Below, in pieces: positions 3,340-22,555 of a stretch of DNA of 22,677 bases. The notes beneath the pieces are model-generated. The model saw only the letters and a program-made list of their open reading frames with translations, ran no database searches and was not told the DNA's origin. How positions within the stretch are numbered: position 1 is the stretch's first letter; each line of letters begins with the position of its first letter. The position numbers and the translations under genes were made by a program. Source of the stretch: a virus; IMG/VR virus record IMGVR_UViG_3300031974_000445, positions 1 through 22,677 of that record; one strand, 5' to 3'.

Positions 3340-5603
3340 TAGAATGATACCTCCGCGATTATACCATTTACTTGCAAAGATAGCGGTGCTGTTTGTGTAA
3401 TGGTGACAACTGGATCTTTGCTATAACCCAGCAGCCTAAACTCTCTTTTGCCAGATACAGCAGTTCTAGCAACGCTAAAGTCATCTGTAACCTGACGTAT
3501 AATCAGGTTCTTGTTGTTTACTGACAATGACAATGTGTCAATCAAATCAACTACAACTCTGCTAACAGCGCGTGGCTCACCAGTAAGAGGACCGCCTTGC
3601 ACCTGTGCATCAATAGGCAGTGTCTGTGCCTCTACATTAAAGTCAAACCCAATCTGGGCAGACGATATGGTTTGTACAGCAGACACATCAACATTGCCAC
3701 TGGCTACTGTAAACTCTCCTAAATAGTCAGTGCCGTTTACAACCTTAACCTTTGCACCATTAGCAAAGTGACTTGATACATCAAACACACCATTGCTGCC
3801 TGAGAACGTAGCTGAGAAGTCCATGTTCATATTCGCATCGAACTCCATAAGAATAAACTTATCAGTCCCAGCACCAAGGTCATATTGACCCACACAAAAC
3901 ACACGATCATCAATGGTGCAAACGGAATGAAACTTACCTGATGTTGTCCACTCAGACCATCCAGCCCTTTGTTCTGCTCTGTTAGATGTAAATACTGCAA
4001 TCTTACCAGTGTCATTCAAAACAAAAGCGTAAGACTCTGGACGATTAATAGCACCACGGAGAATACACATTTGCACAGGATTACTAATCAAATGTGGCGA
4101 TAGCGTTGAGATTGCGGTAGCAACATACGCAGCTTCAGAATCAGAATAGATGTACTCGCGCACAACAGACCCTGTTTTTTGCACATAGATTGTCGCACCA
4201 TCAAATGACTCTGGGCGCACAAAGTTGCTACCGTATGGAGTCTGTCTCCGAATTTGAGCATTAGTTGGCGTGATTGGCTTCTCGGTAAATGATGGAATGT
4301 ACATCTCTGAGGTGCTGGTAAAGATCTGTAGATCACGATTTGACATTAAATGTCGGATAGTATTGATCTCACCAATGCTAGCTGTCAGGTCGATTCCATC
4401 TCCATCCTCACCATCACCCACACCAAAGTCAAAGTAAGATGCTGGTTTACTCGCCCAGATGCCGTCTGGCTGGCCTAACGTACCAGCAAACCACAATCTA
4501 TTCTCATGGAACGTAACAGCCGCTGGGAAGCCTCTGAGGGCCGAATATGACTGCTCTCCCCACTGTGTTGTAGGTGCGTGTGTTACAATCTTTGGTGAGC
4601 CGCCTCCAACAGCAGATGCGTTAGCTGTTGCTCCAGAGGTTACTGTAAATACATTCTCATCAATAACCTCAACAACAGCTTCTGTACCATTGATCTGATT
4701 GGCGTTAATACCACCAACAGCACCAGCTTCACTGATTACAATGCTATCCCCTTCAGCCAAACCATGCAGCGGGAATGTAATCTTAATATCTGCACTGCCA
4801 TCAACAGTCTCAATAGCATCAGTTGCAAGCCGCACTGCAAGTGAATTGGTAACATTGCCAGTAGCTTGAGTAGTTGATTGCACAGATGTAATCAGTATCT
4901 CATTATCGTGATACCGCAGCCTGACCCCAACATGCTTAGAGTCTGGATAATTACCGCCTGACTGACTGCCTGTAATATCAAAGTAAGCTGCACTTGTGGT
5001 AACAGTAATACCATTACCGCTAGATGCAGACGGATCTAGTGTCATGCCCACTGGTTGAAACGAATAGTATGGCTGATTTATTCTGTAGCCATCAGCACTT
5101 GTTTCAAAAGTAGTTGTCTCTACTTGAAATGTAGTCAGGCTAGTACGCACTAGCTTACGCACCATAAAGGTTTGATGCGCTATAAACATAACATCACCAG
5201 CTTGGGCGTAAGTTAGCTCTGGCAAAATGCTATGACTAAACGGCAAAGCAGCCGAGCTTGTATCCTGTGTGATTGTTTGTATTAAGGATACTGCGCCTGT
5301 AGACGGGCTGATCTGAAACACACGGATCTTAGCGTTTTCTAGGCTAACAATGTATCGCTCATCATCAGAAAAAATAAACGGAACAATACGAATCTGTTGA
5401 GTTACTGATCCACTTACTGTGGTGTCAAACTCATAGATCTTGCTAGTACCATATCGCTTTAGCAAACCACCTTCATTACGCAGAAAGAAGTTCTCAACCT
5501 TCTTAGCTGAGTTAGCGTAGATAGGCGTATCCGTCCTTGAGGCCAAAGATGGACTAATCTCTCCAAACTGAAAGTTGCTAATCGGAACGCGAATACGAGC
5601 CAT
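3339..5603 (-). CDS. Tail tubular protein B (nozzle)
   Basis: A 754-residue, beta-rich protein close in size to T7 gp12 (about 794 aa), the nozzle of the short podovirus tail. The N-terminus (residues about 5-60: ISNFQFGEISPSLASRTDTP, then KKVENFFLRNEGGLLKRYGT) is the typical opening of phage tail nozzle proteins: adopt a site, then a statement about non-matching ends and a GG-x-x-x-R motif. A second hallmark is the stretch about 360-400 (VTFHENRLWFAGT, then PDGIWASKPASYFDF). It is directly downstream of tail tubular A with a 1-nt TAATG overlap at 5603, the universal order in T7-like phages. It acts in the virion at the distal end of the tail. Confidence 0.88.
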   Translation of the reverse strand: MARIRVPISNFQFGEISPSLASRTDTPIYANSAKKVENFFLRNEGGLLKRYGTSKIYEFDTTVSGSVTQQIRIVPFIFSDDERYIVSLENAKIRVFQISPSTGAVSLIQTITQDTSSAALPFSHSILPELTYAQAGDVMFIAHQTFMVRKLVRTSLTTFQVETTTFETSADGYRINQPYYSFQPVGMTLDPSASSGNGITVTTSAAYFDITGSQSGGNYPDSKHVGVRLRYHDNEILITSVQSTTQATGNVTNSLAVRLATDAIETVDGSADIKITFPLHGLAEGDSIVISEAGAVGGINANQINGTEAVVEVIDENVFTVTSGATANASAVGGGSPKIVTHAPTTQWGEQSYSALRGFPAAVTFHENRLWFAGTLGQPDGIWASKPASYFDFGVGDGEDGDGIDLTASIGEINTIRHLMSNRDLQIFTSTSEMYIPSFTEKPITPTNAQIRRQTPYGSNFVRPESFDGATIYVQKTGSVVREYIYSDSEAAYVATAISTLSPHLISNPVQMCILRGAINRPESYAFVLNDTGKIAVFTSNRAEQRAGWSEWTTSGKFHSVCTIDDRVFCVGQYDLGAGTDKFILMEFDANMNMDFSATFSGSNGVFDVSSHFANGAKVKVVNGTDYLGEFTVASGNVDVSAVQTISSAQIGFDFNVEAQTLPIDAQVQGGPLTGEPRAVSRVVVDLIDTLSLSVNNKNLIIRQVTDDFSVARTAVSGKREFRLLGYSKDPVVTITQTAPLSLQVNGIIAEVSF

Positions 5604-6196
5604 TAACTGCGCCTTTCAGTAATAAACCTCGAACTTGGAATCTTGCGTGTTGTCTGTTGCTGCGAATCAGTGCTTCTAGCTTTTGCCATAGCCTGTTGTG
5701 CAGATGTTGACATTAGCTGTGCAAGGCTTGCATCTCTAGCAATAGAAGTGGCAAACACATTGGCTAGCCCAAACTCAACCGCAACTGTGAAGTATGAAGG
5801 CCAATATTCTTCATCTGGCCTGTAGGTGTAATCTGCAATAACAACATCTGTTTCTGCTGTATCTGCATAAACCATGTCGCCATAAATCTGATAATCAATC
5901 TGCAAGTCACTAACTGTAACTGCATGAACCATAAGAGTGTCGTTAGCTAATTGATATGCACGATCATATCTGCCTGTTGGCGCATCACTCAAAAGGTTTA
6001 GAACTGCTTGGTTTGTTGCAAACCGCCAGCGTGTATTAACCAACGCAGCCCTAGCAAAATCCTCATACATATTCACAGAGACAAGAGCCTCTGTGCTTCC
6101 ATCATCAAATGATGTAATCGGTTCGGCACCAATAAGAATCAATGCCCTTGAACATATATCAACAGGAGAATCTGCTGTAGTGCTGGTTACTGCCAT
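5603..6196 (-). CDS. Tail tubular protein A (adaptor)
   Basis: A 197-residue protein, the same size as T7 gp11, which forms the ring joining portal and nozzle. Family hallmarks are visible: ICSRALILIGAEPITSFDDG near residues 15-34, then ARAALVNTRWRFAT about residues 48-61, YDRAYQLANDTL about 78-89 and a YRPDEEYWPSYF segment about 128-139. The start ATG at 6196 is preceded by CCCCCTCACTTCAC with no Shine-Dalgarno sequence. Instead a strong UUCG hairpin lies 7 nt upstream. The stop overlaps the tail tubular B start (TAATG). Confidence 0.88.
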   Translation of the reverse strand: MAVTSTTADSPVDICSRALILIGAEPITSFDDGSTEALVSVNMYEDFARAALVNTRWRFATNQAVLNLLSDAPTGRYDRAYQLANDTLMVHAVTVSDLQIDYQIYGDMVYADTAETDVVIADYTYRPDEEYWPSYFTVAVEFGLANVFATSIARDASLAQLMSTSAQQAMAKARSTDSQQQTTRKIPSSRFITERRS

Positions 6197-15405: not shown

Positions 15406-15448
15406 AGTGAATAGCCTTGCTGCCTTTGCCGAATCCACATTTGCTAGC

Positions 15449-15720
15449 TTACCCAGTTCTCCTAGGCATCTGTCGTGGCCCTACCCTCGCCTAACTGCCC
15501 TATCCGAGCCACAGTCGCCCATCCAAGTAAAGGAGCAGGCCGCACCCTGCAGACGAGGTGCATAGCTGGTTCCCTTCCTTCTTCCGTGGCTGTCCTTTAC
15601 TTGGACGCTTCAGCCGCCCTGCAGGGCGTCCTCGCGGCAAGCTGTTCGTCAGTGGCTTCGGGGGCAGCATAAGGCGAGGGCAGTTCCTCGCCAGTTACCA
15701 AGGAGAACTAAAATGGGTAA
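15449..15720 (+). ncRNA. Structured leader RNA that masks a ribosome-binding site
   Basis: A GC-rich, gene-free stretch with nested complementary arms. Outer: TTACCC+AGTTCTCCT (15449-15463) with AGGAGAACT (15701-15709) and GGGTAA (15715-15720), which covers the Shine-Dalgarno sequence and start of the next gene. Next: CCCTCGCCT (15484-15492) with AGGCGAGGG (15672-15680). Next: CCGAGCCAC (15504-15512) with GTGGC-T-TCGG (15652-15661). Inside are two arms: TCCAAGTAAAGGA (15522-15534) with TCCTTTACTTGGA (15593-15605), extended by CAG/CTG and CC/GG and capped by GCACC/GGTGC; and GCTT-CA-GCCGC (15607-15617) with GCGGCAAGC (15634-15642). A local hairpin GGCGAGG/CCTCGCC (15673-15692) competes with the second helix. 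I recognise no known RNA family. I see no clear plus-strand promoter ahead of it. Confidence 0.6.
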
Positions 15721-16117
15721 GCAATCAAATGTAAATGGATTCGTCAAAGACACCAATTCTATCCACACCCTCACGGATAGAGTAACAAGACAATCAGTTC
15801 AATATCATGTTGGCAAGTTCATCGATCATCTCAAGTGGTCAATTGATCTCAAAGAAAAGAAAAAGATGGAGATCAACGAACTCGCTCAAGAGATGATCGC
15901 CAACAAAGATGGCACCATCGAGGGCAACGCACACTACGATGCAGATCAACTGGTTCAGATGGAGAACAACTGGAATTGGAACAACGATCAGCAAGCAGTG
16001 GCTGAGGAAATGCTTACATACTTCAAGCAAGCATCACAGCAGTTGTTCCCAGAAGAACATGCCAAGTCACAGCAGAACGCAACTCAAGCAGAAGCGTTCT
16101 TCACAAAGTCAGCGTAA
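15713..16117 (+). CDS. Hypothetical protein, first rightward gene
   Basis: A 134-residue hydrophilic helical protein (MGKQSNVNGFVKDTNSIHTL) with a Lys/Glu-rich helix (about 43-65), an Asn/Trp stretch (MENNWNWNNDQQ about 82-93) and a Gln-rich end. No domain is recognised. AAGGAGAACTAAA precedes the ATG. It stands alone between the structured leader and a strong terminator, so it is a separately controlled single-gene unit, which suggests an early or host-takeover role by inference. The codon use looks like that of the other early genes. Confidence 0.75.
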   Translation: MGKQSNVNGFVKDTNSIHTLTDRVTRQSVQYHVGKFIDHLKWSIDLKEKKKMEINELAQEMIANKDGTIEGNAHYDADQLVQMENNWNWNNDQQAVAEEMLTYFKQASQQLFPEEHAKSQQNATQAEAFFTKSA

Positions 16118-16202: not shown

Positions 16203-16219
16203 AGTTGCAGCCTGCAACT
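16203..16219. promoter_or_regulatory. Iteron-like palindrome on the promoter -35
   Basis: AGTTGCAG-C-CTGCAACT, with 8-bp perfect arms. Its core GTTGC-N5-GCAAC has the same bases and spacing as the iterons at 19750-19806 inside the initiator gene. It covers the -35 box, so the replication initiator may also control this promoter (inference). Confidence 0.6.
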
Positions 16220-16233
16220 AACTATTATATACT
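16205..16233 (+). promoter_or_regulatory. Sigma70-like early promoter
   Basis: TTGCAG (-35, 16205-16210), 17-nt spacer, TATACT (-10, 16228-16233, 5 of 6). It lies directly after the terminator and before the 38-aa ORF and the DUF932 gene. A palindrome covers the -35 (16203-16219) and a second one starts in the -10 (16230-16247), so the promoter is very likely repressed or autoregulated. Confidence 0.75.
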
Positions 16234-16247
16234 GCAAGTATGCAGTA
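16230..16247. promoter_or_regulatory. Operator TACTGCA-N4-TGCAGTA, copy 1
   Basis: TACTGCAAGTATGCAGTA is a perfect 7-4-7 palindrome overlapping the -10 and start site. The same 7-bp arms and 4-bp spacing recur at 20539-20556, and a degenerate version is at 18608-18625. All three are inside or across promoters. Confidence 0.7.
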
Positions 16248-16263
16248 GGAAATGAGGATAAAA

Positions 16264-16380
16264 ATGCGGATCAAATCTTACAGGAATTTTTATTTCGTGC
16301 CTCGTTACTTTCGCACGGATCGCGGGTTCACCATCAAATGGCTGGGCCTAATCGTAACCCATCGCAACTCAAACTTTTAG
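16264..16380 (+). CDS. 38-aa basic aromatic protein
   Basis: A short frame (MRIKSYRNFYFVPRYFRTDR and 18 more residues) with GAGG 5 nt before the ATG. It is the first frame behind the promoter at 16205-16233 and its TAG stop is embedded in the ribosome-binding site of the DUF932 gene. It is rich in Arg, Phe and Tyr with one Trp. No family is recognised; it could be a leader peptide or a small host-directed phage protein. Confidence 0.6.
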   Translation: MRIKSYRNFYFVPRYFRTDRGFTIKWLGLIVTHRNSNF

Positions 16381-16390
16381 GAGAACCAAA

Positions 16391-17263
16391 ATGGATGGAG
16401 TAACTGTAATTGGAAACAACACACTAGCTTTAGATAACTGGTCGTTTCCTGTTGAAACTGTCAACCTGATTGCAAGCAAGGATGGTGACTGCAACCTGTA
16501 TGATGTGCCTCAGTCTATGGCTAGGGCGATCATGCGTACTGATACCAATGAAGTGCTTGGCGTTCATGGCTCCAAATACAAAGCCATCAAGCATGATGAT
16601 GTTGTCAACTCTGTGATGGATGCTGTTAAAAACTCAGCAGTATCTAATGACTACGACACAAACATTGAAGTGTTCGACAACGGCGCAAAGCTGCGCGGCA
16701 CTGTTGACTTCAATGATCTGGTCATCGAACCAACAGTCGGTGATTATGTCAGGTTCCGTGTTCAATTCTTCAACTCATATGACAGTAGCTGGGCGTTTCA
16801 ACAATCAGCTTTTGGTTTGCGTTTGTGGTGCCTCAATGGCTGCACACACTCAGATACTGTAGCTAATACATGGGCCAAGCATACAACCAACGTCAATGTC
16901 GAGGGCAGTTCAAAGAAAATACAAGCTGGCCTTGATGCGTTCATGACTACCAAAGATATCTACAAATCATGGATGACTACGCATGTTGACGATGAGATGG
17001 CTGAGACATTCTTCAAGCACAGCATGTGTCGTGTACCCAACAAGACAAGCACATTCAAATGGAATGAACGCATGTTGGATAATCTGATGTCATGTTGGTA
17101 TGCAGACAAGAAGGCTCTCGGCTCTAACAAGTGGGCGTTATACAACGCTTGCACATATTGGGCATCACATACTCAAGAGTCTAAGTCACCAGCTAATACT
17201 CAACGGCTGCGTGAGAACCAACTTGCTAAAGTGTTCAAGCAATCTAACTGGCACAGAGTTTAA
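16391..17263 (+). CDS. DUF932 family protein
   Basis: A 290-residue protein with the features of the DUF932 (phage/plasmid-like TIGR03299) group: VLGVHGSKYKAIKHDDVVNS (residues about 55-74), GAKLRGTVDF (about 98-107), a central beta segment, FGLRLWCLNGCTHSD (about 140-154) and HTTNVNVEGSSKKI (about 163-176). The family is found in many phages and plasmids, often near replication or recombination genes, and has no proven function. The site TAGGAGAACCAAAATGG gives the start. The 12 nt GGAGAACCAAAA at 16380-16391 are exactly complementary to the hairpin loop region at 22570-22581. Confidence 0.82.
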   Translation: MDGVTVIGNNTLALDNWSFPVETVNLIASKDGDCNLYDVPQSMARAIMRTDTNEVLGVHGSKYKAIKHDDVVNSVMDAVKNSAVSNDYDTNIEVFDNGAKLRGTVDFNDLVIEPTVGDYVRFRVQFFNSYDSSWAFQQSAFGLRLWCLNGCTHSDTVANTWAKHTTNVNVEGSSKKIQAGLDAFMTTKDIYKSWMTTHVDDEMAETFFKHSMCRVPNKTSTFKWNERMLDNLMSCWYADKKALGSNKWALYNACTYWASHTQESKSPANTQRLRENQLAKVFKQSNWHRV

Positions 17264-17269
17264 TCGCTC

Positions 17270-17316
17270 GACGGTCCCCGCCTCGGCCCCGCATATGGCA
17301 AGAGGCGGGGGCCGTC
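17270..17316 (+). other. Strong GC-rich intercistronic hairpin
   Basis: A 15-bp stem (G plus ACGGTCCCCGCCTC, with GAGGCGGGGGCCGT plus C; one wobble) around a 17-nt loop, starting 7 nt after the DUF932 stop. There is no T-run after it, so it is not a standard terminator. The loop sequence CGGCCCCGC (17284-17292) can instead pair with GCGGGGGCCG (17305-17314), giving two mutually exclusive folds. It may be an RNA-stability or processing element. Confidence 0.65.
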
Positions 17317-17341
17317 TCGCTAATCAAACAAGGAGAATCAA

Positions 17342-17551
17342 ATGAATATATCATTCATCAATCAAGTCAACGAGTGCAAACGTATACTTGACTTGCTTAC
17401 TGAACGTGCATCTGACGAAAATTCACAGTTTCATTACTCAATACAATCAGCCAAGTGGAACATTGATCGTGTTGCTGCAACCTATCAAGAAGTTCTTGAT
17501 CGTGATGCAAACGAAGATCAATCCTTTCGTCCAATCAAGGAGGTAAAATAA
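17342..17551 (+). CDS. Hypothetical small helical protein
   Basis: A 69-residue protein (MNISFINQVNECKRILDLLT), mostly amphipathic helix, acidic. It starts after AAGGAGAATCAA and ends in a 1-nt TAATG overlap with the next gene, whose ribosome-binding site AAGGAGGT lies inside its last codons. No family is recognised. Confidence 0.65.
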   Translation: MNISFINQVNECKRILDLLTERASDENSQFHYSIQSAKWNIDRVAATYQEVLDRDANEDQSFRPIKEVK

Positions 17552-17757
17552 TGTCACTAATGCAACAACGTCACTATGAGTTTCTTGCAGATAATGTTGC
17601 TCCACTATTGGGTTGGCCTACACAAATAGACAGGATGGCTGACGAGTTAGCTGCAACAAATCCCAAGTTCAACAGAGATAAGTTTATCCAACGTGCAGTT
17701 GCTGCGTGGGAGAAAGCAAATCCAATGGAGCCACTTGATGACCATATTCCATACTGA
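17551..17757 (+). CDS. Small phage protein with SSB-tail-like C-terminus
   Basis: A 68-residue protein with the pattern HYEFLADNVAPLL (residues 8-20) and MADELAATNPKFNRDKFIQR (about 29-48). This is common in short phage early proteins of unknown function ('ya..l...nprFdr.rF'). Its last six residues are DDHIPY, close to the DDDIPF tip of bacterial SSB. The start follows AAGGAGGT. It overlaps the next gene by 20 nt. Confidence 0.7.
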   Translation: MSLMQQRHYEFLADNVAPLLGWPTQIDRMADELAATNPKFNRDKFIQRAVAAWEKANPMEPLDDHIPY

Positions 17758-18043
17758 GTTAGAGGCTAAGAAAGTCTTTGAAGAATATTATGAGTGTCGC
17801 TTTTGCGAAATGCAGTTCGATGAGGAGCAATACATTAACTCAATGATCGAAGGCACATGTCCTAATTGCAAAGGCGATGATATCAATCACATGAAAACTT
17901 ACACTGTGTATCAGCATGTGTTTGCTACAGATGAGGATGATGCTGTTGAAACATCATTTCAAATTGGTAATTGGCAATCTATGCAGGGCAAGATTGATAT
18001 CACACGTCACCTATGGGAAGCCAAAAGGAGAACCAAATCATGA
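17738..18043 (+). CDS. Small zinc-ribbon protein
   Basis: A 101-residue protein from the ATG at 17738 (GGAG 8 nt upstream). Cys20-x2-Cys23 (YYECRFCEMQF) and Cys41-x2-Cys44 (GTCPNCKGDD) form a clear zinc ribbon of the rubredoxin-like kind, and the rest is acidic (ATDEDDAVETS). It has no enzymatic motif. It may bind nucleic acid or a host protein. The stop is in an ATGA overlap with the winged-helix gene. Confidence 0.7.
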   Translation: MTIFHTELEAKKVFEEYYECRFCEMQFDEEQYINSMIEGTCPNCKGDDINHMKTYTVYQHVFATDEDDAVETSFQIGNWQSMQGKIDITRHLWEAKRRTKS

Positions 18044-18363
18044 ATGATCTATTCGATGTTGAAGTGCATAAAATGCACCACAAAAATGCTGCTGATACTG
18101 AGGTTGAAGCAGCACAAAAGATTGCACCTAAAGCACCTATCTTACGCATCAAAGTGTTGCAGTATCTACAAAGCAAAGGCACTGTTGGGGCTACAGGTGA
18201 ACAAGTTGCAGAAGGTATTGATGAATGGCTTTACTCTGTGAAGCCACGCATTACTGAGCTTGTTCGTGCCGATCGTGTCATTGATAGCGGTCGGCGTATC
18301 AAAAACTCACGCAACCGCAATGAAATTGTATGGGTTGCTTTAGCTAATGAAGAGGTAAGCTAA
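18040..18363 (+). CDS. Winged-helix DNA-binding protein
   Basis: A 107-residue protein. Residues about 34-100 form a winged helix: ILRIKVLQYLQSKG (helix 1), TGEQVAEGIDE (helix 2), YSVKPRITELVRADRVIDSG (recognition helix and strand), then a wing RIKNSRNRNEIVWVAL. The 'VkpRitELvr.drvi.sg.r' pattern is common in phage regulatory proteins. It starts at the ATG at 18040 after AAGGAGAACCAAATC, overlapping the previous stop (ATGA), and ends in TAATG. It is probably a transcription regulator of the early block (inference). Confidence 0.72.
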   Translation: MNDLFDVEVHKMHHKNAADTEVEAAQKIAPKAPILRIKVLQYLQSKGTVGATGEQVAEGIDEWLYSVKPRITELVRADRVIDSGRRIKNSRNRNEIVWVALANEEVS

Positions 18364-18599
18364 TGGCTGGTGCATATCATAGATCCAAGACAGGCTATCT
18401 TAATCCACAGATGGCAAGCTATGCAGAATCTGAAAAATTTTACAACAGAATGAAAGCTGAACAACGAGAAGCAATGATCAAAGCATCTGAGTCTATACCA
18501 GATGATGCTTTTGCTGATGATGTTATACCTAATGATGAGTATGGCAGCATCAAACGTCATGAAACAATTGTTGAAACAACTCTTTGGCACTATGACTGA
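18363..18599 (+). CDS. Hypothetical acidic small protein
   Basis: A 78-residue protein (MAGAYHRSKTGYLNPQMASY) with a charged helix (ESEKFYNRMKAEQREAMIKA) and an acidic loop (DDAFADDVIPNDEYG). No family is recognised. The start is in TAATG with GAGGT upstream. Its stop TGA is followed at once by the TTGACA of the next promoter. Confidence 0.62.
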   Translation: MAGAYHRSKTGYLNPQMASYAESEKFYNRMKAEQREAMIKASESIPDDAFADDVIPNDEYGSIKRHETIVETTLWHYD

Positions 18600-18628
18600 T
18601 TGACAAATACTGCGTAGTTGCAGATGAT
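18600..18628 (+). promoter_or_regulatory. Promoter with internal operator (copy 3)
   Basis: TTGACA (18600-18605), 17-nt spacer, GATGAT (18623-18628, 4 of 6). The spacer is filled by TACTGCGTAGTTGCAGAT (18608-18625), a degenerate copy of the TACTGC-N6-GCAGTA operator. The predicted start of transcription (about 18635) falls on the A of the ATG of the HTH gene, so the mRNA would be leaderless. Confidence 0.65.
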
Positions 18629-18634
18629 GTGTTC

Positions 18635-18838
18635 ATGCAAAGTTACTTGGACATACTCAAAGAAAAATCTGCAACCGCAAACGTCCCACTAAAGAAGGCG
18701 TTTGTACATGCTGGAGTGCGCGACTCTACATACTACCGTGCAATACATGGTCGCAATCTCCGGCATGAAACAGCTAACCGTGTGGAACAGTCGATTGAAA
18801 AACTTTCAACACTTCAAAGAAGAGACAGTAGTTCCTGA
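18635..18838 (+). CDS. Small HTH protein, repressor candidate
   Basis: A 67-residue protein from the ATG at 18635 (an upstream GTG at 18629 is possible). The sequence DILKEKSATANVPLKKAFVH, AGVRDSTYYRAIHGR and LRHETANRVEQSIEKL forms a helix-turn-helix in which STYYRAI is the likely recognition helix. This is the layout of small phage Cro/C2-like DNA-binding proteins. No Shine-Dalgarno sequence is visible, and the promoter geometry predicts a leaderless transcript, as for lambda cI. An operator copy lies in its own promoter, so it is the best candidate for the protein that reads the three operators. Confidence 0.7.
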   Translation: MQSYLDILKEKSATANVPLKKAFVHAGVRDSTYYRAIHGRNLRHETANRVEQSIEKLSTLQRRDSSS

Positions 18839-19067
18839 CACATATCAAGAGATCATATTGAGCTTGGTTCAACATAGACACAAGCTCGGTATGTCTCAGG
18901 AAGAGTTAGCCCATCAAATCGGCTGTGCAAAATCACTTGTTCACAAATGGGAGCAGTATAAACGTGTGCCATCTGGCTTCATGTTTAGCTGTTGGTTAGA
19001 AGCACTTGGCCTCACGATCAAAGTCCACAAGAAAAAAACTAACGCTAGGAAGAAAGCAGTATTGTGA
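18765..19067 (+). CDS. Xre-family HTH protein
   Basis: The C-terminal two-thirds is a clear Xre-type HTH: IILSLVQHRHKLGMSQEELA, HQIGCAKSLVHKWEQYKRVP, then a hydrophobic helix FMFSCWLEALGLTI and a Lys-rich tail. The start is uncertain. The ATG at 18765 lies inside the previous gene in another frame and has no good Shine-Dalgarno sequence; the frame stays open to 18702. Either this gene overlaps the HTH gene by 74 nt or more, or a +1 shift near 18800-18838 joins the two HTH domains in one protein. A second regulator is likely, as in repressor pairs. Confidence 0.65.
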   Translation: MKQLTVWNSRLKNFQHFKEETVVPDTYQEIILSLVQHRHKLGMSQEELAHQIGCAKSLVHKWEQYKRVPSGFMFSCWLEALGLTIKVHKKKTNARKKAVL

Positions 19068-19338
19068 TGCTTGCAATACACACACCAATTATTTTGTGTG
19101 CATTTTAGCTACAATAGAACCCGCAACATATCACACGATATGTTTAGATTGTTACGATGGTGAATCATGGCAAACAAAAATCGCAACAAAGGCAACTACC
19201 ACGAAAGGTGGTTCGTCAACTGGCTCCAAGAAAAAGGGTTCAAAGCGAAAAGGCAACCTCTCAGCGGCAGCTTGGGAGGAGAATATAGCGGGGACATCAT
19301 CTGGGAAATCGGACAAGAGCGACTGGTGGTGGAAGTAA
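19006..19338 (+). CDS. Doubtful Cys4 zinc-finger frame
   Basis: The frame fills the 99-nt gap between the Xre gene and the nuclease gene and there encodes YCDACNTHTNYF followed by ICLDCYDGE, a two-CxxC zinc knuckle of the kind seen in small phage proteins. It has no ATG or GTG start: only a TTG at 19006 inside the Xre gene. Its second half overlaps the nuclease gene and is low-complexity Lys/Ser/Gly, probably not meaningful. It may be a non-ATG gene, a +1-shifted extension of the Xre protein after the A7 run at 19032-19038, or a relic. Confidence 0.3.
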   Translation: MASRSKSTRKKLTLGRKQYCDACNTHTNYFVCILATIEPATYHTICLDCYDGESWQTKIATKATTTKGGSSTGSKKKGSKRKGNLSAAAWEENIAGTSSGKSDKSDWWWK

Positions 19339-19529
19339 AGTACCGCGACAAGTCAAACTTTCCCAATCCATTTACAGTTGTAAGAGATGTTTTGTTTTAC
19401 AAGCGCAAGACAGGCTCACCGAAAACGCTTGTAATATTTGATGGCGATGTATTTGCTGAAAGGATTGCGCCATTACTAAAGGAGAACCAACATGTCGTTT
19501 CTACTGATGGCGAGGGCAATCAAAGCTGA
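19167..19529 (+). CDS. Hjc-like Holliday junction resolvase / PDDEXK nuclease
   Basis: A 120-residue protein. NKGNYHERWFVNWLQEKGF (residues 7-25) with Glu13, RQPLSGSLGGEYSGDI (29-44) with Asp43, and VVEVKYRDKSN (54-64) with Glu56 and Lys58 are the signature of the Hjc/VRR-like PD-(D/E)xK fold. 'SG..g....DI' followed by 'EvK' is typical of phage and archaeal Holliday junction resolvases. It would cut branched recombination or replication intermediates, as T7 endonuclease I does. It is next to the replication and annealing genes. GGTGA precedes the ATG. It overlaps the initiator gene by 38 nt. Confidence 0.75.
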   Translation: MANKNRNKGNYHERWFVNWLQEKGFKAKRQPLSGSLGGEYSGDIIWEIGQERLVVEVKYRDKSNFPNPFTVVRDVLFYKRKTGSPKTLVIFDGDVFAERIAPLLKENQHVVSTDGEGNQS

Positions 19530-20154
19530 CATCCCTGATTGCTATGCCAAGTGGCTTATGGTCGTACTTGCTGACCATGCCGATGAACATACACACGAAT
19601 GTTTCCCTAGTTTGTCACGTCTATCTGACCGCACACAAATGAGTGTGGCTACAATTACTAGGAAACTCAATTGGTTAGAGGATCACGGGCTGCTTACAAG
19701 AGTGCGTGGCTCATACCGCAAGTCTACCATCTATACAATATTTCCTAGTGTTGCACAGAGCAACGAGGTTGTTGCAGACAGCAAGTTACCTGTTGCAGAC
19801 AGCAACACTAACCTATCAATTAACCCTCCAGTAAACAAAAAGATATTGGTGCCAGAAGATTGGTGTCCAAGTGAGGAGTTGTGCAAGTCGATCAATGAAA
19901 AGCTAGAAGAGGATCAGGACCATGAGTATGAAGCAGATCAGTTCCGTTGTTACCATGCCAGCAAAGGCAGCAGATTCGTCAGCATTGACCTCGCTTACAG
20001 AGGCTGGTGTCGCCGCGCCTTTAAGTGGAGAGCAGATGGATCAAGGTCGGGATCGTTTACTAACAATAAACAGTCCATCAGAGGCAGACAAAAGGCTAGT
20101 CACTTCGCTGGAATCTTATCTGGGCTTTCCAGTGCGGCAGATAAGCAGAACTAG
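19492..20154 (+). CDS. Replication initiator, lambda O-like
   Basis: A 220-residue protein with strong start AAGGAGAACCAACATG. Residues 1-85 are a phage replication-protein winged helix (HTH_36-like): YAKWLMVVLADHADEHTHEC, FPSLSRLSDRTQMSVATITR, KLNWLEDHGLLTRVRG. Residues about 86-107 form a linker encoded by three direct repeats. Residues 140-185 (ADQFRCYHASKGSRFVSIDL, AYRGWCRRAFKW) are the C-terminal part common in phage initiators. The linker repeats are iterons, so the gene likely contains its own origin, as lambda O does. It overlaps the next gene by 119 nt. Confidence 0.75.
   Translation: MSFLLMARAIKADIPDCYAKWLMVVLADHADEHTHECFPSLSRLSDRTQMSVATITRKLNWLEDHGLLTRVRGSYRKSTIYTIFPSVAQSNEVVADSKLPVADSNTNLSINPPVNKKILVPEDWCPSEELCKSINEKLEEDQDHEYEADQFRCYHASKGSRFVSIDLAYRGWCRRAFKWRADGSRSGSFTNNKQSIRGRQKASHFAGILSGLSSAADKQN
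19750..19812. repeat. Three 21-bp iterons: candidate replication origin
   Basis: Three copies spaced exactly 21 bp start at 19750, 19771 and 19792: GTTGC-ACAGA-GCAAC, GTTGC-AGACA-GCAAG, GTTGC-AGACA-GCAAC. Each is an imperfect palindrome GTTGC-N5-GCAAC. An AT-richer segment follows (about 19806-19855). The position between the two domains of an O-like initiator gene is that of the lambda origin. Confidence 0.7.
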
Positions 20155-20557
20155 GTTCCTTGAAAGCAGCCTTGAGATCATTGTCAAAGGCTATGAGATA
20201 ACAACAAAGGACATAGAAGGTTTGAATAGGGCCATAATCGCTGCTCAGAAGGCACTGACGCCATTTACAGCACAGCAGCTAGAGGAACAGCTAACCGCTG
20301 TTGCAGCCCTTGTAGTGAAGCCTTCAAACGAATCTTCTCAAGATCATGCAATGCGGATTAAAGCTACAGCTATCAAGCTGCAAGATTATCCAGCAGATAT
20401 TGTGAAGTATGCGCTTGAGCGTGTGGTCGAGTCGTCAACATTCTGGCCCTCATACGCAGAAATATACAAGCACATCGAGTGGCGTGTGCGTAACAGGAAC
20501 CTGTTACTGGATGCGCTTTTAAAGAAACGTGTTGCACTTACTGCACAGTTGCAGTAG
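20036..20557 (+). CDS. Putative helicase loader / primosomal protein
   Basis: A 173-residue protein from the ATG at 20036, chosen because GGAG lies 6 nt upstream; the frame is open further to 19922. The C-terminal half has 'HAMRIKATAIKLQDYPADIV', 'KYALERVVESSTFWPSYAEI' and 'YKHIEWRVRNRN'. The 'yP.d.v..al......fWPs.aEi' pattern is found in phage proteins downstream of initiator genes that are thought to act with DnaB-type helicases. The O-then-P gene order supports this. No ATPase motif is present, so it is not DnaC-like. Confidence 0.6.
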   Translation: MDQGRDRLLTINSPSEADKRLVTSLESYLGFPVRQISRTRFLESSLEIIVKGYEITTKDIEGLNRAIIAAQKALTPFTAQQLEEQLTAVAALVVKPSNESSQDHAMRIKATAIKLQDYPADIVKYALERVVESSTFWPSYAEIYKHIEWRVRNRNLLLDALLKKRVALTAQLQ

Positions 20558-20560
20558 TAT
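20532..20560 (+). promoter_or_regulatory. Promoter with operator copy 2, before the exonuclease gene
   Basis: TTGCAC (20532-20537), 17-nt spacer, TAGTAT (20555-20560). The spacer and first two bases of the -10 are covered by TACTGCACAGTTGCAGTA (20539-20556), a perfect TACTGCA-N4-TGCAGTA palindrome. Both boxes are weak, but the geometry is the same as at 18600-18628. It would drive the exonuclease-annealing-SSB group. Confidence 0.6.
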
Positions 20561-20580: not shown

Positions 20581-21393
20581 ATGAACAGACTAGGATTTCT
20601 AGGCGGCTCAGATATGCGCCGCATAATGAATGGTGATTGGACATCACTGTGGGAAGAAAAGACAGGCAAGACAGAGCCTGATGATCTATCCAATGTGCTG
20701 CCTGTGCAGCTTGGAGTATTTACAGAACAGTTCAATATCAATTGGTTTGCTGACCAGCATCGTTGCAATGTTAGAAAGCAACAGCATTGCGTTGAAATAA
20801 ATTGGGAAGGTGTGCCGCTCAAAGGAACTGTAGATGGATACATCTGGGACAACAGCGGATCTGAAAATACTTTCACTGATGACATCATTGAGTGCAAGCA
20901 CACATACGATGCCAACAACATGCAGCAATGTTTGCAGATGTATATGCCACAGATACAGTTTTACATGTGGTTACATCAAGCCAAGGGCTGTTATCTATCT
21001 GTAATCTTTGGCAATCGTAGATGGGAATCTGTCTATGTTTCAATTGATTGGGATTACATTCACAAAATGCAAGTCCACATCAAAGAATTTTGGAGGCTGG
21101 TTCGTGATGACACCCGCCCTTTTGCTGATGATGAGATACCACCTGTATCCATAGACAAGATCAAAGTAGATGGCATGACACGCAGAGATGCGTCATCTGA
21201 CAATGAGTTTATTAGCAGATGCCATGACTACATTGAGCAAGAACAAAACGCCAAGCTATTTGAATCAGCCAAGGCTGACCTCAAAGCTATGGTCGGAGAT
21301 GATGAGCGAGAAGTTTACTGTGACCTTCTCACCATCAAACGCGATAAGCGCGGATCACTTCGTGTCACAGTAAAGGAGAACCAGAATGTCTAA
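20581..21393 (+). CDS. YqaJ-like viral recombinase exonuclease
   Basis: A 270-residue protein of the lambda-exonuclease/YqaJ PD-(D/E)xK fold. LGFLGGSDMRRIM (residues 4-16), LGVFTEQFNINWF with Glu49 (44-56), LKGTVDGYIWD with Asp85 (80-90), IIECKHT with Glu104-x-Lys106 (102-108) and QIQFYMWL with Gln124/Gln126 (124-131) are the active-site motifs. It degrades one strand of double-stranded DNA ends to expose ssDNA for the annealing protein next door. It starts after AAGGAGAACCAAC and is driven by the operator-bearing promoter at 20532-20560. Confidence 0.88.
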   Translation: MNRLGFLGGSDMRRIMNGDWTSLWEEKTGKTEPDDLSNVLPVQLGVFTEQFNINWFADQHRCNVRKQQHCVEINWEGVPLKGTVDGYIWDNSGSENTFTDDIIECKHTYDANNMQQCLQMYMPQIQFYMWLHQAKGCYLSVIFGNRRWESVYVSIDWDYIHKMQVHIKEFWRLVRDDTRPFADDEIPPVSIDKIKVDGMTRRDASSDNEFISRCHDYIEQEQNAKLFESAKADLKAMVGDDEREVYCDLLTIKRDKRGSLRVTVKENQNV

Positions 21394-21847
21394 AGACAAT
21401 CTAAAACTATGGAACAAGGTATCAAAATCTGATCCCAAGTTCCTCAAGAATGTATCGTTTGGATCACGCTCATTTACAGCTATTGATCCTCAGTACCAAG
21501 TGAAGTCAGCTACAGAAGAGTTTGGCCCAATTGGTCACGGTTGGGGATGGTCAAATACAACTCGCTTTGTTGATGTAAGCAATGGTGACACTGCTGTTAT
21601 TGCTGACGTTATGATATGGACAGGCACTAAAGAAAACTGCTTTGGCCCATTCAGTGGATGCCGCAAGTTCTTTGACGCTAAGAAAAGCAGGATGTCAGAG
21701 GATGCACCTAAGATGGCTATTACAGATGGCCTAACAAAAGCTATGTCACATCTTGGGTTCAATGCAGATGTGTTTCTTGGTGAATATGATGGCAACAAGT
21801 ACACCGCTGATACAGGTGGTGATAAGAGCGGTGGAGGTGAATGGTAA
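21386..21847 (+). CDS. Single-strand annealing protein (Rad52/Erf-like)
   Basis: A 153-residue protein. SFTAIDPQYQVKSATEEFGP (residues 29-48), GHGWGWSNTTRF (about 51-62), CFGPFSGCRKF (about 84-94), then APKMAITDGLTKAMSHLGF and NADVFLGEYDGNKY (about 107-140). The conserved ending 'ALTkAls.lGf.adVflG.yDdnkY' is that of short phage annealing proteins of the Rad52/Erf superfamily. Its C-terminus is Gly-rich and short. It works with the adjacent exonuclease in end-dependent recombination. It starts after AAGGAGAACCAGA and overlaps the exonuclease gene by 8 nt. Confidence 0.75.
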   Translation: MSKDNLKLWNKVSKSDPKFLKNVSFGSRSFTAIDPQYQVKSATEEFGPIGHGWGWSNTTRFVDVSNGDTAVIADVMIWTGTKENCFGPFSGCRKFFDAKKSRMSEDAPKMAITDGLTKAMSHLGFNADVFLGEYDGNKYTADTGGDKSGGGEW

Positions 21848-22164
21848 TGTTCCACGTGAAACAGCTACAAACCATTGAGGATGAACTCAAAAGGATCAAC
21901 AACAATTTGGAGAAGCTGGTTATGCTGGCTTCCCCACCACCAGCCAAACCAAAGAAACTGATTGAGACATCAAACAAATATCCACGCAAGTTTCTAACTA
22001 CAATCAAGGGTAGGTATAGAACTGTAGAAGAGATTGGCAAGTATCTAAACTTGTCTACTCAAACAGTTACAACCTACATCAAGTTAGCTAGGGCTGACGG
22101 ATACATTATCAATCGCAAACATGGTGGCTTGTACAAGCTACAGAAGGGACAGATCAATGACTGA
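21847..22164 (+). CDS. HTH protein beginning MFHVKQ
   Basis: A 105-residue protein. The ATG at 21847 is preferred over 21841 because GGAGGT lies 8 nt upstream and the start forms TAATG with the previous stop. Residues 7-25 are a coiled-coil helix (IEDELKRINNNLEKL); residues about 40-105 form an HTH (FLTTIKGRYRTVEEIGKYLN, LSTQTVTTYIKLARADGYII). A DNA-binding regulator or partition-like adaptor is possible. The first codons contain the parS-type site. Confidence 0.7.
   Translation: MFHVKQLQTIEDELKRINNNLEKLVMLASPPPAKPKKLIETSNKYPRKFLTTIKGRYRTVEEIGKYLNLSTQTVTTYIKLARADGYIINRKHGGLYKLQKGQIND
21848..21863. promoter_or_regulatory. Consensus parS (ParB-binding) site
   Basis: TGTTCCACGTGAAACA fits the bacterial chromosomal parS consensus TGTTNCACGTGAAACA at every base. 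A 15-base fixed match is expected about 2 in 100,000 times in a window this size. It lies in the first codons of the 105-aa HTH gene. No parA or parB gene is in the window, so a host ParB is the likely partner if the site is functional. Confidence 0.75.
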
Positions 22165-22555
22165 ATATGACAACACTAACTCCGGCATAGCTGGTAAGCC
22201 TTGGCCCGAACAGAACTTTATCTTGCAGGGCAAGCTAAACATCATGGGTGAGGATGGTCACGTTGCTATCATTACGGCTCAAACCAAAGCAGGAGAAAAG
22301 CGTCTTGAGGTATACCAAAAGGTAGGTGTGCTGTTTGAAAACAAAGACAAGACAGATGATGACAACAAACCAGATTACTCTGGCCCTCTTGATGGCATAC
22401 ATCAGGATTGGCGTATTGCTGGATGGCGCGGTGAGAAAGACGGACGCAAGTATCTATCACTCAAGGTGTCAGAGATGCAGCCAAAGGATGAGGAATCAAA
22501 GCCAGAGCCACAAGAAACATCTACACAAGAGCTAGATGATGATATACCATTCTAA
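22157..22555 (+). CDS. SSB-like protein with DDDIPF tail
   Basis: A 132-residue protein from the ATG at 22157 (AGGGA upstream; 8-nt overlap with the previous gene). The body has alternating strands (NFILQGKLNIMGEDGHVAII, LEVYQKVGVLFENKDK) and IAGWRGEKDGRKYLSLKVSE, which resembles the DUF736-type small beta domain. The end is an acidic tail, QELDDDIPF, identical in its last six residues to Escherichia coli SSB, the peptide bound by many host repair proteins. A phage ssDNA-binding protein is the best reading; the OB fold is not proven. It is the last gene of the exonuclease-annealing group. Confidence 0.65.
   Translation: MTEYDNTNSGIAGKPWPEQNFILQGKLNIMGEDGHVAIITAQTKAGEKRLEVYQKVGVLFENKDKTDDDNKPDYSGPLDGIHQDWRIAGWRGEKDGRKYLSLKVSEMQPKDEESKPEPQETSTQELDDDIPF

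Follow-up and report, generated by a model that had tools for sequence, protein, structure and literature searches.

A 67-residue helix-turn-helix protein as candidate early-gene repressor of a mostly marine group of uncultured phages

In the IMG/VR virus record IMGVR_UViG_3300031974_000445 (22,677 bases, analysed over its whole length and called the window below), the palindrome TACTGCA-N4-TGCAGTA stands at three predicted promoters, which raises the question of which protein reads it and what this does to the genes behind it. The answer favoured here is that a 67-amino-acid helix-turn-helix (HTH) protein encoded behind the second copy, HTH67, is probably an autoregulated Cro-like repressor of the early genes; the sites, their promoter geometry, their conservation and their co-occurrence with the HTH67 gene can be read directly in the sequences, from which dimerisation, binding and repression by HTH67 are predicted. 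The nearest terminase match is that of Pelagibacter phage EXVC031P Hodr (62.7% identity), which is also the closest isolate; longer relatives of the window are 27-34 kb in size.

One operator at three predicted promoters

The palindrome is exact at two places, O1 (TACTGCAAGTATGCAGTA) and O3 (TACTGCACAGTTGCAGTA), and degenerate at a third, O2 (TACTGCGTAGTTGCAGAT), which has 3 mismatches in 14 positions (Table 1). A promoter with 17-bp spacing fits each of the three sites, with the operator in the spacer or across the -10 element, and the positions are conserved across relatives, which supports the proposal of the initial annotation that one operator family is built into three early promoters. 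Judged by base composition, 9.6e-5 copies of the exact 18-mer are expected in the window versus the 2 observed. With up to three mismatches allowed there are five matches versus a mean of 1.87 in shuffled sequences, and 5 of 100 shuffles reach five; two of the five matches (at 5777 and 7598) belong to the structural arm and seem fortuitous. As these shuffles show no significance for the degenerate site at 18608, the argument for it from the window alone was rejected, and the site stands on comparative evidence.

That evidence comes from relatives retrieved both by the HTH67 protein and by the exonuclease encoded behind O3, in which operators recur at the same three places: before the left early genes, before the gene for the 67-amino-acid HTH protein and before a RecE/YqaJ-type exonuclease gene. 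Across 15 IMG/VR records the core ACTGC-N6-GCAG was found 41 times, with 39 of these places O1-O3-like (for one, G002:3508, which is situated at the distant end of its record, sequence was the sole basis of assignment), versus 2 matches to the reversed core pattern in the same scan; the two remaining core places are near-identical and lie in G006 and G011. Thus, relatives do not carry the many copies in coding DNA that, according to the initial annotation, would have spoken against an operator.

The operators overlap or fill their promoters in differing registers. O3 fills the 17-bp spacer in the commonest register, and so does O2 in close relatives; O1 overlaps the -10 element. In non-redundant sets of sites (<85% identity, picked by CTGC-N6-GCAG, so that full conservation of those eight bases is by construction), the P1 register -25/17 or -24/16 scores best in 13 of 26 O1 sites, the P2 register in 10 of 28 O2 sites and the P3 register -7/17 in 22 of 38 O3 sites, with TTG at that -35 position in 29 of the 38; where distance was used to bin sites as O1 or O3, a few are probably chance matches. 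Such varied registers suit occlusion of the promoter over one fixed activator geometry. That the palindromes are activator sites or RNA hairpins instead of repressor operators is extremely unlikely. They are, it is true, perfect or near-perfect inverted repeats, and some distant relatives have an O2 that overlaps the start codon; however, the half-sites are kept among relatives while the N4 centre varies, the sites lie within the spacer or across the -10 element at ordinary 17-bp spacing, and O2 and O3 of the window are upstream of the predicted transcription start and therefore not transcribed there.

A second short dyad, TTGCA-N3-TGCAA (16205-16217, + strand), covers the -35 element of P1. 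Similar dyads accompany O1 in many relatives and are absent or decayed in others; as the half-sites are one base closer than those of the main operator, the dyad may have a different binder.

The protein that accompanies the operator

A profile search of IMG/VR found 568 stretches that encode a relative of HTH67, of which 80 were kept; 78 of these loci, with 31 distinct upstream sequences among them, could be tested, two being without upstream sequence. All 78 carry the core with at most 2 of 10 mismatches near the HTH start codon, that is, an operator at the regulator's own promoter, versus 1 of 227 background windows. The converse search points the same way: an exact scan of IMG/VR for the 18-mer gave at least 120 stretches, 50 with an HTH67 relative, versus 2 of the 107 stretches found with a control palindrome changed by one base per half-site; 13 further stretches of the at least 120 are kin by their neighbouring genes. 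In an alignment of 20 relatives (29-66% identical to HTH67 of the window) most loci retain the core; some of this set was found via the operator, and the unbiased statement is therefore the count of 78 in 78. Operator specificity thus looks unusually constant across the family. Hodr has neither the operator core nor HTH67, as far as could be found; a search for a palindrome specific to Hodr in its place gave four perfect palindromic places in the early region, none of which is a repeated motif.

Among the candidate HTH proteins named in the initial annotation, the 67-amino-acid one is the best match by these distributions. A 107-amino-acid HTH protein is encoded in 10 of the at least 120 exact-operator stretches, and no homologue of the replication initiator (Rep) was found in several operator-bearing loci; both were set aside as binders on account of their distribution. 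A host transcription factor that binds the sites and times phage expression in the manner of CtrA is very improbable. There is precedent in the CtrA sites reported in promoters of Alphaproteobacteria phages (PMC9437464); here, though, the sites track a phage gene and not the host label, the same core being present in contigs that binning placed with Opitutae, Rhodobacterales and Novosphingobium, and Hodr, which is without HTH67, is also without the sites.

The HTH67 family appears to be undescribed in the libraries searched: nothing convincing was found in Pfam, PHROGs, NCBIfam or the PDB sequences, the best match to HTH_3 of Pfam (E 0.022) being among those of four of 21 family members, with none for the protein of the window. 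Isolate phages gave no relative at E values up to 1 and, with two longer relatives as queries and E values up to 10, unconvincing matches only. An AlphaFold2 model of HTH67, with a predicted local distance difference test (pLDDT) score of 90.6, has helices at residues 4-15, 19-25, 30-37 and 44-65, of which the second and third form the HTH. Its structural matches are weak (best Foldseek E 0.24; 434 Cro TMq 0.61) and mostly to lambda-repressor-like proteins, with Z scores of 7.0 for HNF-1A, 6.7 for prophage Lp1 protein 11, 5.7 for C.Esp1396I, 5.1 for P22 c2 and 5.0 for 434 Cro.

Among bacterial and archaeal genomes, the HTH67 profile matched five contigs of metagenome-assembled genomes (MAGs) with 50-61% GC. 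Their cores lie close to the HTH gene or at some distance downstream of it, and the contigs may be phage DNA that was binned with bacterial genomes. Two near-identical loci that both encode an HTH67 relative carry a variant palindrome, TAGTGCAATAATGCACTA (TAGTGCA-N4-TGCACTA; L215 at 4846-4863, L243 at 4864-4881), in a promoter-like setting with 17-bp spacing; it is possible that this is an operator of altered specificity. Covariation of operator and recognition helix was rejected as evidence, as this single variant lead is too few.

A proposed early circuit and its rivals

After entry of the phage DNA, the early promoters would fire on host sigma70 RNA polymerase. A dimer of HTH67 would then bind CTGCA-N4-TGCAG, occluding the left early promoter at O1 and the promoter of the recombination operon at O3, and, at O2, its own promoter, which would also drive the genes for Xre, the resolvase and the replication initiator. 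As HTH67 accumulates, occupation would begin at the site with the best match (O3, often also O1) and extend to the weaker O2 afterwards, the outcome being a self-limiting early pulse. Of 50 distinct triples of sites, 40 have more mismatches in O2 than in O3. The genes behind O1, O2 and O3 (Table 1) indicate that the proposed targets are early, replication and recombination genes. The small open reading frame (ORF) that follows O1 in the window is replaced by one for a small hydrophobic protein in other relatives.

Table 1. Operators, predicted promoters and genes of the early region of the window
Feature	Position	Strand	Basis or context
P1, predicted promoter	16205-16233	+	TTGCAG 16205-16210, 17 bp, TATACT 16228-16233
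O1, operator, exact 18-mer	16230-16247	+	overlaps -10 of left early promoter; conserved in relatives
Small ORF, 38 codons, first ORF after O1	16264-16380	+	GAGG upstream; start region conserved in L007 and L008
290-aa early protein, function unknown, downstream of O1	16391-17263	+	phrog_1221 (E 5.8e-26)
P2, predicted promoter	18600-18628	+	TTGACA 18600-18605, 17 bp, GATGAT 18623-18628
O2, operator, degenerate 18-mer	18608-18625	+	fills P2 spacer, enters -10
HTH67, 67-aa lambda-repressor-like HTH protein, proposed operator-binding repressor	18635-18838	+	co-occurrence, structure model
Xre (HTH_3) protein, 100 aa if started at this ATG	18765-19067	+	overlaps 3' end of HTH67 gene
Holliday junction resolvase-like protein, O2 operon	19167-19529	+	
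O-like replication initiation protein, O2 operon	19492-20154	+	phrog_1032 (E 5.3e-24)
P3, predicted promoter	20532-20560	+	TTGCAC 20532-20537, 17 bp, TAGTAT 20555-20560
O3, operator, exact 18-mer	20539-20556	+	fills P3 spacer, enters -10
RecE/YqaJ-like exonuclease, first gene after O3	20581-21393	+	phrog_434 (E 1.1e-26); YqaJ (E 1.4e-7)
Recombination-associated protein, O3 operon	21386-21847	+	phrog_7838
Single-strand DNA-binding-like protein, O3 operon	22121-22555	+	E 2.3e-5

A Shine-Dalgarno-like sequence precedes the first ATG behind 21 of 24 O1 sites and 23 of 36 O3 sites, versus 3 of 27 O2 sites (sets chosen as for the registers; L215 and L243 were excluded from the register, Shine-Dalgarno and mismatch-triple counts). 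As the ATG of HTH67 in the window coincides with the predicted transcription start, its mRNA is probably leaderless.

Several points weigh against the repressor proposed here. Binding and repression by HTH67 are themselves predictions, and the fold, given its weak matches with HNF-1A as the best by Z score, shows only the common HTH arrangement. In the same 50 triples O2 has more mismatches than O1 in 24, fewer in 25 and an equal number in 1; O2 is thus not weaker than O1 overall, which makes the order of filling uncertain, and in many distant loci O1 was not found. Further, 57 of the at least 120 exact-18-mer stretches belong neither to the HTH67 loci nor to their recognised kin; these comprise 16 stretches from one other family and 41 others. 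In the 16-member family (L031, L035, L043, L044 and 12 further loci) the exact 18-mer lies inside a repeated TGCA-rich locus, and an HTH67 relative was not detected there.

The remaining counterpoints concern the adjacent Xre protein, which is a serious rival as binder even though it is unlikely that the regulator which binds the operators is Xre, either by itself or jointly with HTH67. Xre matches HTH_3, its homologue stands beside HTH67 in 118 of 129 loci, and it is encoded in 49 of the at least 120 exact-operator stretches versus 2 of the 107 controls, so that by this measure it does nearly as well as HTH67. The 11 HTH67 loci without an adjacent Xre homologue nevertheless retain their operators. 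When the records of 10 of these loci were searched (the eleventh, L213, is on the same contig as L085), no Xre homologue was found except one weak match (E 7.3e-4), and a 32.9-kb record of the Xre-less clade has none; in three of the eleven (L213 at 4173-4433, L085 and L110), a different Xre-like ORF (E 0.3) lies just upstream of O2. Hodr (L025) encodes at 15431-15958 an Xre-type HTH fused to a Rep-like C-terminus and has no operator core. This C-terminus resembles the replication initiator of the window, where the two are separate genes, and the fusion suggests a role of Xre in replication.

Lifestyle, known systems and meaning

The view that the regulon is typical of a temperate phage did not find support: none of 16 records, several of them partial, matches the tyrosine integrase PF00589 or the serine resolvase PF00239. 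Given the incomplete records, and as other routes of persistence were not searched, a temperate lifestyle is unsupported rather than excluded. Integrases in the MAGs that hold L321-L323 were rejected as evidence for it; they are uninformative on the L321-L323 contigs because they may be located anywhere in the binned genomes. The alternative of a delayed lytic circuit, also offered by the initial annotation, is possible; a Cro-like governor of the early genes is the simpler reading.

HTH67 could also be a CI-like immunity repressor of a temperate phage, or the keeper of a non-integrated prophage state, which is judged improbable. In favour of this, many temperate phages have autoregulated promoters and a small repressor. 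Against it stand the lack of integrase and resolvase matches just described and the specificity retained over relatives 29-66% identical to HTH67 of the window, which contrasts with the immunities of lambdoid phages, as these diversify. Those early ORFs of the window to which a function could be assigned are all on the + strand and showed no divergent CI partner; relatives were not searched systematically. In temperate phage PY54 the cI and cro mRNAs are likewise reported to be leaderless (PMC4488713), which speaks for an immunity repressor.

The Cro-like reading of HTH67 fits that same source as well: PY54 Cro is there a lytic repressor with a leaderless mRNA and few operators (PMC4488713), features that the proposed HTH67 system would share. 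Unlike HTH67, which would act at three sites including its own promoter, PY54 Cro is described there as binding a single site that controls cI and not its own gene. 434 Cro and P22 c2, with their small lambda-repressor-like HTH fold, are among the weak structural matches of HTH67, and they too have a palindromic operator overlapping early promoters. The operator of the window, 18 bp long with an N4 centre, resembles that of P22. In contrast to both, there is no convincing sequence match, one operator per promoter and no integrase found. C proteins, small autoregulatory HTH proteins that control restriction-modification genes, are represented among the structural matches by C.Esp1396I; the proposed targets of HTH67 are instead genes for replication and recombination of the phage. 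CtrA-mediated lytic deferment (PMC9437464) is similar in that the sites of a regulator are concentrated in phage promoters, but CtrA is the host's regulator and the sites described here track a phage gene. Phage repressors with a regulon of three sites are a known kind, of which this version was previously unnamed; in the literature on SAR11 and pelagiphages, Cro-like and leaderless regulation no title or abstract opening was found that treats this system.

A regulator, its binding site and its target genes can now be proposed for a large, mostly marine group of uncultured phages, represented by the 568 IMG/VR stretches with an HTH67 relative, for which no early control had been annotated here. 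Given the conserved specificity, one may ask whether phages that infect the same cell regulate one another. HTH proteins diverged to about 30-40% identity, on contigs of 44-61% GC, would then share one code: hundreds of phages would keep one specificity, and the repressor of each would silence the early genes of any co-resident relative, a proposition that is tentative and on balance doubtful. If it holds, HTH67 would be a built-in governor of early expression and at the same time a means of superinfection exclusion across phages without lysogeny, and the pair of loci with TAGTGCA-N4-TGCACTA may represent a first escape by altered specificity.

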